Source: Thermoplasmata archaeon (GTDB taxonomy: Archaea; Thermoplasmatota; Thermoplasmata; Lutacidiplasmatales; UBA184). Taken from it: a DNA stretch of 64,000 nucleotides. The notes beneath the pieces were generated by a model. That model was not told the origin of the DNA. It ran no database searches and saw nothing but the letters and a program-made list of their open reading frames with translations. The position numbers and the translations under genes are program-made. The stretch is taken from assembly GCA_022750195.1 (NCBI GenBank), contig JAKIWE010000001.1, positions 928,672 through 992,671 of the forward strand. Reading direction: 5' to 3'. How positions within the stretch are numbered: the first letter of the stretch is position 1; each line of letters opens with the position of its first letter. This document shows positions 60,155 to 62,615 of the stretch, piece by piece.

Positions 60155-61474
60155 TCAGCGGTTCGAGAGGGCTCTGGAACGCCGACCGCGGTGCTTCGGA
60201 CGGTCGCGTGGGCTCGAGCCGGCCGTAGGGGCGACGGCGGGACGCAGATGGCTGAGGTCACGCCCCAGGTCGTCGAGCAGCTTGCCCGCGACGTCGAACT
60301 TGGGACCTTCCAAGGTGTGCCGGGTACCCCGTGCCGAGAGGACGAGAACACGCGTCGTGCTCGCCCCCATTGCGCTCCGGTCGTTCGCAACCGTCCAGTC
60401 GAGGTCGTTCTCGCGCAGCAGGCGCTCGGCCTCGGCGGTGAACGCCGCGGGGTCCGTCGTTGCCTCGAGCTTGAATCCGATCAAGCGGGTCGGACGTGGG
60501 GCTCGGCGGCGCAGCTCGGGGAGAAGTTTCGGCGCCGGACGAAGCTCCAACGTGAGCGTCGGGTGCTCCCTCGAGGAGATCTTGCCGTGCCGGGGCGTGA
60601 GCGTGTAGTCGGAGAGGGCCGCGGGCACAAAGACGGCCGCGGCGCGGGCGAGCGTGCTACCGTGGGTGCGGACCAGGGACCGGAGGTCCTCGAGAGATCT
60701 CCACCGTTGGACTCTGAGGAACGACGGGACCGGGTACTGGGCGTTTCCCAACCACAGTTCCACTTCCGCCCCCCGGTAGTAGGACTGCGCCGCTAGGCTG
60801 ACCGCCGTTTCCCCACTGCTCTCGTTGGTGACGGAGCGGACTTCGTCGATCGCCTCCCGACTGGCGCCGCCGATGACGACCACCCCTCGGCCGGCCCAGC
60901 TGCCGCGGACCAGCCGGTGGAGGACCGCGGCCGCGATCTCCTCGGGGGAGCCCAGCTTCGCTTCCCCCTCGGCGTCGGTCGGGGCGATCACGCCGACGCC
61001 CCAGCCTCGAAGACGTTCTAGGTTCTCCCGGATCGCTGGGTTCCGCTCCATGTCCGCGTGCATCGCGGGGGCCACGAGGACGGGGACCCCTCCGCCGAGC
61101 GCGACCGACGCGAAGGAGGTCACGGCGGTGTCGTCGATCCCGTGGGCCACTTTCGAGATCGTGTTCGCCGTGGCGGGGGCGAGAAGGAGCAGGTCGGCCC
61201 GGCCCTCACCGGGTCCGAACCAGGTCACGTGCTCGACGCCCCCGGTGAGCTCCGTGACGGGCGCGTGTCCCGTCGCGAAGTGGATCGCTTCGGGGGTCAC
61301 GATGCGGGCGGCGTCCGGCGTCATGACCGCCTGCACGTCGGCGCCGTGTCGGATCAGCTCGCGAACGATCCGCGGCGTCTCCACGGCGGCGATGGACCCG
61401 GAGATGCCGATGACGATCGTCTTGCCGGAGAGCAGCTGGCTGGTTCGCCCACGGATCGCGCGGCTTGGGTGCAT
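60155..61474 (-). CDS. coaBC: Bifunctional phosphopantothenoylcysteine decarboxylase / synthetase (CoaBC)
   Basis: Two consecutive coenzyme A steps. 439 aa. The CoaC part (about 1-190): KTIVIGISGSIAAVETPRIVRELIRHGADV, LLLLAPATANTISKVAHGIDDT and VLVAPAMHADMERNPAIREN (flavin binding and the PAMH-x-M active-site region). The CoaB part: VVVIGGASREAIDEVRSVTNESSGETAVSLAAQSYYRGAEV, then a variant of the family's A(A/V)SD-Y region (FVPAALSDYTLTPRHGKISS) and RLIGFKLEATTD. The last 30 residues are basic. The ATG at 61474 is preferred; upstream sequence is an extension without conservation. Confidence 0.92.
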   Translation of the reverse strand: MHPSRAIRGRTSQLLSGKTIVIGISGSIAAVETPRIVRELIRHGADVQAVMTPDAARIVTPEAIHFATGHAPVTELTGGVEHVTWFGPGEGRADLLLLAPATANTISKVAHGIDDTAVTSFASVALGGGVPVLVAPAMHADMERNPAIRENLERLRGWGVGVIAPTDAEGEAKLGSPEEIAAAVLHRLVRGSWAGRGVVVIGGASREAIDEVRSVTNESSGETAVSLAAQSYYRGAEVELWLGNAQYPVPSFLRVQRWRSLEDLRSLVRTHGSTLARAAAVFVPAALSDYTLTPRHGKISSREHPTLTLELRPAPKLLPELRRRAPRPTRLIGFKLEATTDPAAFTAEAERLLRENDLDWTVANDRSAMGASTTRVLVLSARGTRHTLEGPKFDVAGKLLDDLGRDLSHLRPAVAPTAGSSPRDRPKHRGRRSRALSNR

Positions 61475-61546
61475 CGGTGTCTCCTCCGTCAGGTGCTGAA
61501 CGGGCGCGGAGCATGAGGCCCCAAAAGGACGCCGCCCGTCCACCCT

Positions 61547-61555
61547 CCTTAAACC
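61547..61555. promoter_or_regulatory. Box A in the coaBC / HAD divergent gap
   Basis: CCTTAAACC lies 21-29 nt before the plus-strand GTG at 61576, and its complement GGTTTAAGG about 75 nt from the coaBC ATG. Confidence 0.5.
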
Positions 61556-61575
61556 CCGGTCCCGCTCCTCGGCTC

Positions 61576-62472
61576 GTGCCCCGACGACCGTCGCGCGACC
61601 GCGCTCCCGTCAAGCCTGCCGAGACGCCGCCGTCGCTGGATCCGGACACGCCCGAGGTCGACATTCCCTTGCCGATGGTTCGTCCGGCGACCTCCGCGTA
61701 CGCCGAGATCGCGCACCTCCCGGGGCTGGAGGAGACCGTCCTCCCTCGGACCGTCGAACGGGGCGTCGTCGCCTTTGACCTCGACGGGACCCTGCTCGAC
61801 GATATTGGCCTCATCAGCCATGTCGCTGGCCAGGTCCTCGCCGAAGCGTTCGGGACGCCCCCGGACGAGGCCCGGATCCACTACCTCGCGACGACCGGTA
61901 TGCCGTTCGAGGCCCAGCTCGCCCAGCTCTACCCCGAGGCGCCCGCGGACCACCGCCTGGCGACCGCCCGGACGTTCCACGAGAAGAAGGTCAAGGAGGC
62001 GTACGCCCACGCGACCCCTTTCCCGGAAGTGCCGAAGCTCCTCAAGCAGCTCGATCGCGACGGGTGGACGCTCGTCGTCTCGACCGGGGCCGAACGGGAG
62101 ACCGCGGACCTTCTCCTCGAGCGCGAGGGGCTCCGGTACTGGTTCGAGGGCGTCCTGGGCTCGGGGCAGGGGACGAAGCGCGAGCATCTCGCCGAGTTCC
62201 GCCGTCGGTACCCCGGCGCGCCGCTCTTCCTGGTGGGGGATTCCCGCTTCGACATGGAGGCCGCCCGGTCGGTCGAAGGCGTGATCCCCCTCGGACGAGC
62301 CTCCTCGATGCACGGATGGACCCTCACGCCCGACGATCTGGCTCGTTGGGGCGCGGCCTGGGCGGACTACGCGCTCTCGGCGCTACCGACCGTCCTGCCC
62401 GAGCTGCTGAAGGGAACACGGACGCGTGGAGCCGACCGCCCCCGGCGGCGTTCCGCCAAGCCGAGGCGGTAG
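61576..62472 (+). CDS. HAD-superfamily phosphatase
   Basis: 298 aa. A ~60-residue Pro/Ala-rich extension precedes the HAD core: VVAFDLDGTLLDDIGLISHVAGQ (nucleophile Asp near 67), a helical cap, LVVSTGAERETADLLLEREGLRYWF (motif II) and LFLVGDSRFDMEAARSVEGV (motifs III/IV). It matches phosphoglycolate phosphatase/beta-phosphoglucomutase-type enzymes; substrate unknown. Leaderless GTG; the basic C-terminal tail ends one base before the 3' end of the tRNA-His gene on the other strand. Confidence 0.85.
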   Translation: MPRRPSRDRAPVKPAETPPSLDPDTPEVDIPLPMVRPATSAYAEIAHLPGLEETVLPRTVERGVVAFDLDGTLLDDIGLISHVAGQVLAEAFGTPPDEARIHYLATTGMPFEAQLAQLYPEAPADHRLATARTFHEKKVKEAYAHATPFPEVPKLLKQLDRDGWTLVVSTGAERETADLLLEREGLRYWFEGVLGSGQGTKREHLAEFRRRYPGAPLFLVGDSRFDMEAARSVEGVIPLGRASSMHGWTLTPDDLARWGAAWADYALSALPTVLPELLKGTRTRGADRPRRRSAKPRR

Positions 62473-62579
62473 GGCCGGGACCGGGACTCTCAGGCGGCGG
62501 GGTCGGTCCCCGCGACCGTTTGAACCCGGGTCGAGGGATCCACAGTCCCCCAGGATAACCAGACTACCCCATCCCGGCC
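62473..62579 (-). tRNA. tRNA-His (anticodon GTG) with a T-loop intron
   Basis: Read on the minus strand: G(-1) at 62579, acceptor GCCGGGA (1-7), T8, D-arm GGGT...ATCC, anticodon stem-loop GGGGA-CTGTGGA-TCCCT giving anticodon GTG with T33, variable loop CGAC, T-stem CCGGG, T-loop interrupted, T-stem CCCGG, acceptor TCCCGGC and C73. G(-1) pairs with C73, the hallmark of tRNA-His. Exon 1 is 62579-62519, the intron 62518-62487 (32 nt), exon 2 is 62486-62473. After splicing the T-loop becomes TTCAAAT. The CCA end is not encoded. A box A-like AAACTATTT lies about 30 nt upstream. Confidence 0.9.
62487..62518 (-). other. Non-canonical tRNA intron (position 59/60) with bulge-helix-bulge
   Basis: The 4-bp central helix is TTCA (exon 1) with TGAG (intron). 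Three-base bulges are AAC (cleaved AA/C) and AGT (cleaved AG/T). The outer helix is the T-stem CCGGG/CCCGG. The inner helix is GGT-C-GCGGGG with CCCCGC-C-GCC (one C-C mismatch) closed by the loop ACCGA. This is a complete hBHBh' motif for the archaeal splicing endonuclease. Confidence 0.88.
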
Positions 62580-62606: not shown

Positions 62607-62615
62607 AAATAGTTT
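62607..62615 (-). promoter_or_regulatory. Box A promoter of tRNA-His
   Basis: AAACTATTT on the minus strand lies 28-36 nt upstream of the 5' end of the tRNA, the expected archaeal distance. Confidence 0.5.

Follow-up and report, generated by a model that had tools for sequence, protein, structure and literature searches.

Introns in the T-loop of tRNA genes are best known from Thermoproteales. Non-canonical tRNA introns in general have been described as almost confined to Crenarchaeota, with three thermophilic methanogens and other phyla also being named (PMC3218864), and the junction between tRNA positions 59 and 60 (59/60) is listed among the known non-canonical sites (PMC4090602). The same source describes euryarchaea with splicing endonucleases of the α4 or α2 type as having a single intron per gene, located at the canonical site. 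In the accepted picture, non-canonical tRNA introns are tied to endonucleases with an extra loop. Hirata and colleagues reported that relaxed motifs are removed efficiently only by (αβ)2 and ε2 enzymes and that intron positions tend to be diverse in carriers of a CSL or an ASL (PMC6379350; PMC12397907), and enzymes of the α′2 type are described as narrow in specificity (PMC6379350, Table 1). Here, we describe a tRNA-His(GTG) gene of a Thermoplasmata archaeon that is interrupted at 59/60 and lies in a window of 64,000 nt, by which we mean the whole stretch of DNA that was analyzed.

RESULTS

A tRNA-His(GTG) gene with an intron in the T-loop

The exon and intron coordinates of the tRNA-His gene were derived by hand from the sequence and tool output, and the features of the locus are as follows:

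62607 to 62615, minus strand: putative TATA-like box AAACTATTT, approximately 28 nt upstream of the tRNA-His gene, proposed from reading the sequence
62473 to 62579, minus strand: tRNA-His(GTG) gene, ending at C73 (62473) and G-1 (62579), based on the sequence, ARAGORN on the spliced form, and conservation in the family
62519 to 62578, minus strand: 5′ exon, tRNA positions 1 to 59, from the acceptor to A59, near-identical in congeners
62541 to 62543, minus strand: anticodon GTG, based on the sequence and ARAGORN
62521 to 62524, minus strand: T54-T55-C56-A57, 5′ strand of the central helix of the bulge-helix-bulge (BHB), based on pairing counts in 16 sequences and 99 distinct introns
62487 to 62518, minus strand: intron of 32 nt at T-loop position 59/60, which varies among congeners while the exons are constant
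62489 to 62492, minus strand: TGAG at the 3′ end of the intron, 3′ strand of the central helix, based on pairing by position
62474 to 62486, minus strand: 3′ exon, T60 to position 72, based on reading of the sequence

The acceptor sequence GCCGGGA starts at 62578; all 7 of the 7 acceptor pairs and 5 of the 5 T-stem pairs are present, and G-1 is opposite C73. Excision of 62518 to 62487 leaves the T-loop TTCAAAT, and ARAGORN, which does not detect the unspliced gene, calls the spliced sequence tRNA-His(gtg). An earlier sequence-only reading of this DNA, which had proposed a tRNA-His(GTG) with G-1:C73, full acceptor and T-stems, and a 32-nt T-loop intron at 59/60, is borne out by these results and by the presence of the same site in relatives (see below); the euryarchaeal context that it had proposed is that of Thermoplasmata. 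It had also claimed a full BHB. By position, the T-stem, the central helix TTCA/TGAG (four pairs, one of which is G-U), the bulges AA^C and AG^T, and a GC-rich inner hairpin are all found, but the central helix is missing from the best predicted fold of the T-arm.

At the Rfam gathering score, there was no match in the window. Below this threshold, the tRNA-His gene scored 21.8 bits compared to the cut-off of 29 and was given a wrong 3′ end. A convergent 335-aa ORF (61465 to 62472) has a stop codon that ends one base short of C73; if that ORF is a gene, then the two are arranged tail to tail and abut.

The tRNA-His intron is conserved in relatives, and the gene is the only copy found

The search for a second tRNA-His that the sequence-only reading had suggested was performed using ARAGORN, Rfam, pattern, and RNA-model searches (the last with 150 of 4898 first-look candidates scored), and we found no intron-less tRNA-His and no other GTG gene in the genome, which consists of 52 contigs and is 95.65% complete. 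Among 24 congeners, 18 have the same tRNA-His gene with a 31- to 32-nt intron at the same site. A pattern scan for tRNA-His with a 59/60 intron gave 97 matches in 400 genomes of the class, of which 94 were retained after false matches (G050, G320, and G386) had been recognized by reading the letters and removed. The intron was detected in 83 of the 95 sampled genomes of the family, i.e., 61/70 in the genus of this genome and 22/25 in the other genera, and in 5/5, 5/5, and 1/2 genomes of three further families of the class (a split that was counted by hand and whose sum equals the tool tally). Across these relatives, the exons are near-constant and their stems intact, while the introns change fast. 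This conservation, in 94 of 400 class genomes and with constant exons as opposed to diverging introns, excludes that the pattern arose by chance, and a chance origin was rejected.

A looser pattern was then applied to the 12 family genomes that had not matched; 11 of these are 56 to 87% complete, and the remaining one (G048) is 98% complete. In G048, ARAGORN calls an intron-less tRNA-His (L358) whose sequence is clearly of another type, and there was no match with a T-loop intron; this gene may be foreign, a contamination, or the result of intron loss. All other matches to the looser pattern in these 12 genomes were not tRNAs. In a scan of public genomes, 118 loci among the matches listed comprised 97 tRNA-His genes with a T-loop intron, 13 intron-less tRNA-His genes, and 8 loci without a tRNA model. 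Titles were available for 80 of the 118 loci, and all eight intron-less loci with known titles were bacterial. The same tRNA-His gene is present in the record of UBA184, which has been assigned to Lutacidiplasmatales (PMC9287336), and the family studied here probably belongs to that order. A Hadesarchaea and a Woesearchaeota record (L076 and L133) have tRNA-His with insertions of 22 and 43 nt at 59/60, so the site recurs outside the class.

The low score under the Rfam cut-off and the intron-less tRNA-His of G048 would both fit a decayed tRNA that carries an insertion, with another tRNA-His serving translation. However, no other GTG gene was found in the 95.65% complete genome, and the exons are nearly invariant across the family and retain intact stems. 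We consider decay extremely improbable, and the pseudogene reading was rejected on the basis of the intact exons and the lack of a second tRNA-His among the genes found.

At least 14 tRNA genes of the genome are interrupted at 59/60

While the tRNA-His gene is real, the sequence-only reading, which had noticed it as a single odd gene, was incomplete because at least 14 of the approximately 47 tRNA genes in this genome have an intron at 59/60. By fetching weak Rfam matches together with their flanks, we identified such introns, besides that of His, in the genes for Asn, Ala-GGC, Gly-TCC, Gln-CTG, Ser-GCT, Glu-CTC, Arg-TCG, Ser-CGA, Ser-GGA, and Asp. For RNA models, we used four well-aligned genes of this genome (R1) and 16 sequences (R2); MAFFT alignments of eight genes (with His and Arg misaligned) and of six genes (with Asn and Gly off) were set aside for the modeling. 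R2 added Arg-TCT and Lys-TTT and indicated Leu-TAG, for which the T-loop intron was judged by eye. In their spliced forms, all 11 T-loop-intron genes tested (His and the 10 genes above) were assigned the expected isotype by ARAGORN, as was Arg-TCT, and spliced Lys-TTT was assigned the right isotype once its D-arm was shortened too.

By a hand count that leaves out two odd Ile-like copies, approximately 21 of the approximately 47 identified tRNA genes have an intron of any kind. Canonical 37/38 introns are present in four genes, i.e., those for Tyr and Trp, one Met-type gene, and one that ARAGORN calls Ser-TGA and that we re-read as Leu-TAA. A further interruption is found in the D-arm region of Lys-TTT and Leu-TAG, and the only intron of Arg-GCG, of Pro-TGG, and of one Met-type gene lies in the D-loop. 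The D-loop introns map as follows:

G000:C11:208852-208956 (L217/L238): Arg-GCG D-loop intron
G000:C11:234253-234359 (L250): Pro-TGG D-loop intron
G000:C3:98550-98900 (L220): Met-type D-loop intron
G000:C3:13453-13594 (L244): Lys-TTT D-loop intron

The D-loop introns of Arg-GCG and Pro-TGG are alike by eye (CTACGGG..CCCGCT), and this likeness may mark copying between genes. A long D-arm of Arg-GCG is present in six of the seven family genera read. The two Ile-like copies are near-identical and lie 6.3 kb apart (C11:469340-469650, L223, and C11:475680-475980, L224); possibly, they represent the duplicated attachment site of an integrated element or tRNA remnants.

When the 11 T-loop-intron genes were given to ARAGORN in unspliced form, seven were missed and four were called with the correct anticodon and a wrong 3′ end; the ARAGORN list for the genome lacks His, Asn, Asp, and others. 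Using the Rfam tRNA model on the 14 T-loop-intron genes, four scored above the cut-off, eight below, and two were unlisted. The tRNA-His gene is missed both by ARAGORN and at the Rfam cut-off, but the statement of the sequence-only reading that standard tRNA finders can miss such genes is too strong. The archaeal mode of tRNAscan-SE 2.0 is described as searching for non-canonical introns (PMC8450103), and the Lutacidiplasmatales paper, in which tRNAscan-SE was used, describes one genome with tRNAs for all 20 amino acids (PMC9287336). Inventories of these archaea obtained with tools that are blind to T-loop introns would have tRNA genes missing or with wrong ends.

The same tRNA genes are interrupted across the family and beyond

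RNA-model searches of relatives give counts that are lower bounds. We fetched 100 loci from relatives, of which 97 were modeled (all except L260, L306, and L324), 85 with and 12 without a T-loop intron. In eight genomes from seven genera of the family, 58 of the 68 long non-His loci were modeled with a T-loop intron, corresponding to at least 5 to 9 per genome, and 59/60 introns were found in all seven genera sampled. The same tRNAs recur in these genomes, with Asp and Ala-GGC interrupted in 8/8 and Gln-CTG, Arg-TCG, and Asn in 7/8. In a genome from another family of the same order (G026), we found ten T-loop introns, nine of them of only 13 to 14 nt, among 11 loci read (L335-L345); eight of the ten genes have a second intron at 37/38, and 8 of the 10 T-loop introns are in tRNAs that are also interrupted in this manner in the family studied here. 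In a third family of the order (G025 and G027), T-loop introns were found in Arg-CCG and Ala-CGC only, among the loci read. A T-loop intron in Arg-TCT is present in five families of the class, including that of this genome. Because the same tRNAs are interrupted across genera and in G026, a large part of the set looks as if it was already present in the ancestor of the family and perhaps in that of the order.

Comparison of intron cores between different tRNAs of this genome gave a mean z of 0.48, with 5 of 91 pairs above 3. In the relatives, the mean z was 0.48 for different tRNAs (248 pairs) compared to 0.93 for the same tRNA between genomes (230 pairs). Spread of the introns by copy-and-paste was rejected as an established fact, as no clear kinship is seen between the intron cores when different tRNAs of one genome are compared.

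The long retention across the whole family would be in agreement with an intron that is kept for a purpose. Integrases and RNase P frequently target the T-arm, and an intron at this place might block the integration of mobile elements in the T-loop and 3′ end or might time T-arm modification and end trimming. Nevertheless, a sequence-specific role is disfavored because the intron sequences diverge fast and their lengths range from 13 to 42 nt, and we consider a purpose of this kind unlikely.

Position 57 covaries with the intron, and the predicted motif is strict with G57 and weak with A57

We compared 99 distinct T-loop introns (13 to 42 nt, median 32), most of which were found with a helix-containing model and using a locus finder that also weights the helix, and which come in part from relatives that are not independent. 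In these introns, the bases opposite T54-T55-C56-R57, i.e., the four that precede the 3′ bulge, can form four pairs in 66 cases and three pairs in 33 cases. T54 and T55 are opposite A or G in 99/99 introns, and C56 is opposite G in 98/99. At position 57, G57 is opposite C in 43 of 47 introns, while A57 is opposite T in 23, G in 27, C in 1, and A in 1 of 52. For the covariation of position 57 with a C in the intron, Fisher's test gives a p of 3e-22 over the 99 introns, which is not a true probability because the introns are related. Pairing in the central helix reaches 96.9% in the alignment of 16 sequences, itself fitted to the model, and the position-57 pair there is G-C in 7, A-U in 6, G-U in 1, and unpaired in 2. 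All of the first 11 introns of this genome, which were found blind to the helix by the Rfam tRNA model or by the reader, can form at least three of the four central pairs, and the His introns found by pattern have at least three central pairs in all but one case (L155).

In 7 of the 14 59/60 introns of this genome, the central helix has a mismatch with A57 opposite G. Folding of the T-arm alone predicted the exact 3-4-3 motif in each of the six introns with G57 and in none of the eight with A57; His is among the latter, and its central helix has a probability of approximately 0.05. The unconstrained best fold of the tRNA-His precursor is not a cloverleaf and is no better than those of shuffles (z −0.68). 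The cloverleaf with the full BHB has a predicted energy of −51.8 kcal/mol compared to −53.6 kcal/mol for the best fold, i.e., 1.8 kcal/mol higher. In these models, the motif is strict for the introns with G57 and weak for those with A57. This predicted weakness is what makes us most hesitant to assume that a narrow enzyme cuts all these introns.

The genome encodes one endonuclease of the fused α′2 type and one RtcB ligase

The endonuclease-type check suggested by the sequence-only reading pointed to one gene, of the fused α′2 type. The genome contains two PF01974 stretches, both in a single 353-aa ORF that also has two PF02778 stretches. Residues 28 to 335 of this ORF align collinearly with the A. 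fulgidus α′2 enzyme (1r0v), and the top-scoring solved chain is that of the Methanopyrus (αβ)2 enzyme (5x89), which aligned in three separate stretches. In an alignment of 12 endonucleases (this one and 11 of the class), KTGFKYG, H299, and K330 are invariant, and the catalytic Tyr, His, and Lys of the C-terminal repeat are present; the assignment of the catalytic tyrosine within this repeat is one that we presume. The linker before the L.LS strand has the native A. fulgidus length and is shorter than that of chain 3p1y, which, from its letters and PMC6379350, we take to be an A. fulgidus mutant with the Crenarchaea-specific loop. No insertion at the CSL/ASL site was found in the 12 aligned endonucleases. 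Among 12 other genomes of the class searched, 11 have two PF01974 stretches in one ORF, and G061 has one stretch. From its sequence, we classify the endonuclease as a fused α′2-type enzyme, the only endonuclease gene found, and there is one RtcB ligase gene in the genome.

The sequence-only reading had held that the tRNA-His intron would need a broad-specificity endonuclease; this is not supported, as the enzyme is an α′2 type without the CSL insertion, and all four pairs of the central helix are possible in the His BHB. The many T-loop introns here are nevertheless surprising because α′2 enzymes are described as narrow. A truly broad enzyme, i.e., an α′2 that was broadened by a route other than the known loops or that is aided by a second unrecognized subunit, would account for the A57-G mismatches in half of the 59/60 introns of this genome, which represent relaxed motifs as opposed to the narrow specificity described for α′2 (PMC6379350), and for the nine introns of G026 that leave hardly any room for an inner helix. 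On the other hand, both PF01974 stretches are in one ORF in this genome and in all but one (G061) of the others searched, and the CSL/ASL insertion is absent from all aligned sequences, in searches that are blind to a wholly unrelated subunit. We regard a truly broad enzyme as a tentative possibility. In G026, the minimal motifs co-occur with an α′2 enzyme. The A. fulgidus α′2 enzyme is described as able to excise a bulge-helix-loop intron at 37/38 from full-length pre-tRNA (PMC6379350), and cleavage of minimal BHBs at 30°C has been reported for a Ferroplasma enzyme of the same class (PMC8707768); these reports leave room for an α′2 breadth beyond the narrow label.

DISCUSSION

Taken as a whole, we consider it highly probable that the tRNA-His gene is real and is spliced at a 59/60 BHB by an α′2 endonuclease and RtcB, at a docking site that is recurrent and in a set of introns that is largely ancestral. 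The anatomy of the gene, its conservation, the covariation between position 57 and the intron, and the single genes for endonuclease and RtcB are established, and we infer from these the cleavage, the ligation, and the order of processing of the tRNA-His precursor. In the proposed mechanism, TGAG at the 3′ end of the intron would pair with T54-T55-C56-A57, and this central helix, flanked by the T-stem on one side and the intron hairpin on the other, would form the BHB. The fused α′2 endonuclease would cut both bulges, and RtcB would ligate the exons, thereby restoring the T-loop TTCAAAT. T54, T55, C56, R57, and A58, which are common to nearly all tRNAs, could serve as a universal docking site, and an intron 3′ end of CGRA (with G57) or of TGRA or GGRA (with A57) would then suffice to generate the motif in any tRNA. 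The recurrence of 59/60 in at least 14 genes could be explained by the near-universality of this site.

More broadly, we favor, on balance, that this family and part of the class filled their tRNA genes with introns at one T-loop site while having a loop-free α′2 enzyme, which breaks the (αβ)2/ε2 rule. The invariant TTCRA would supply half of the splice motif ready-made, and the spread of the introns would therefore have needed no change in the enzyme. This is the simplest reading, with hidden breadth of the enzyme as its rival. Because many non-canonical introns coexist with plain α′2 enzymes in this clade, a few substrates would be enough to test directly how intron diversity is linked to the type of enzyme.

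The His intron itself is a known kind of object, i.e., a BHB intron at a listed non-canonical site. As far as the literature searched shows, what is new is the setting, in which one T-loop site is reused in a euryarchaeal class with plain α′2 enzymes; among the matches listed in a search of open-licence papers, there was no report of such introns in Thermoplasmata. The introns described for Crenarchaeota and Thermoproteales (PMC4090602, PMC4033280, PMC8450103) are similar in that they have BHBs outside 37/38, affect many genes per genome, and are missed by older tools. However, they are described together with (αβ)2 enzymes and many sites, whereas here an α′2 enzyme without CSL is found together with one dominant site. 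Canonical euryarchaeal introns share the motif and presumably the enzyme and ligase but are located at 37/38 instead of in the T-loop, and less than 10% of tRNA genes are described as interrupted in Euryarchaeota (PMC4090602) compared to almost half of those identified here. Methanopyrus and Methanothermobacter are likewise described as euryarchaeal exceptions to the canonical site, with multiple or non-canonical introns (PMC4033280; PMC3218864); these exceptions are named species, and Methanopyrus has an (αβ)2 enzyme, whereas here a whole family with α′2 enzymes is concerned. Finally, the Asgard Atabeyarchaeia and Freyarchaeia, which are wetland-soil archaea of a different archaeal group, are described as having a similarly heavy load of non-canonical introns (PMC11291895).
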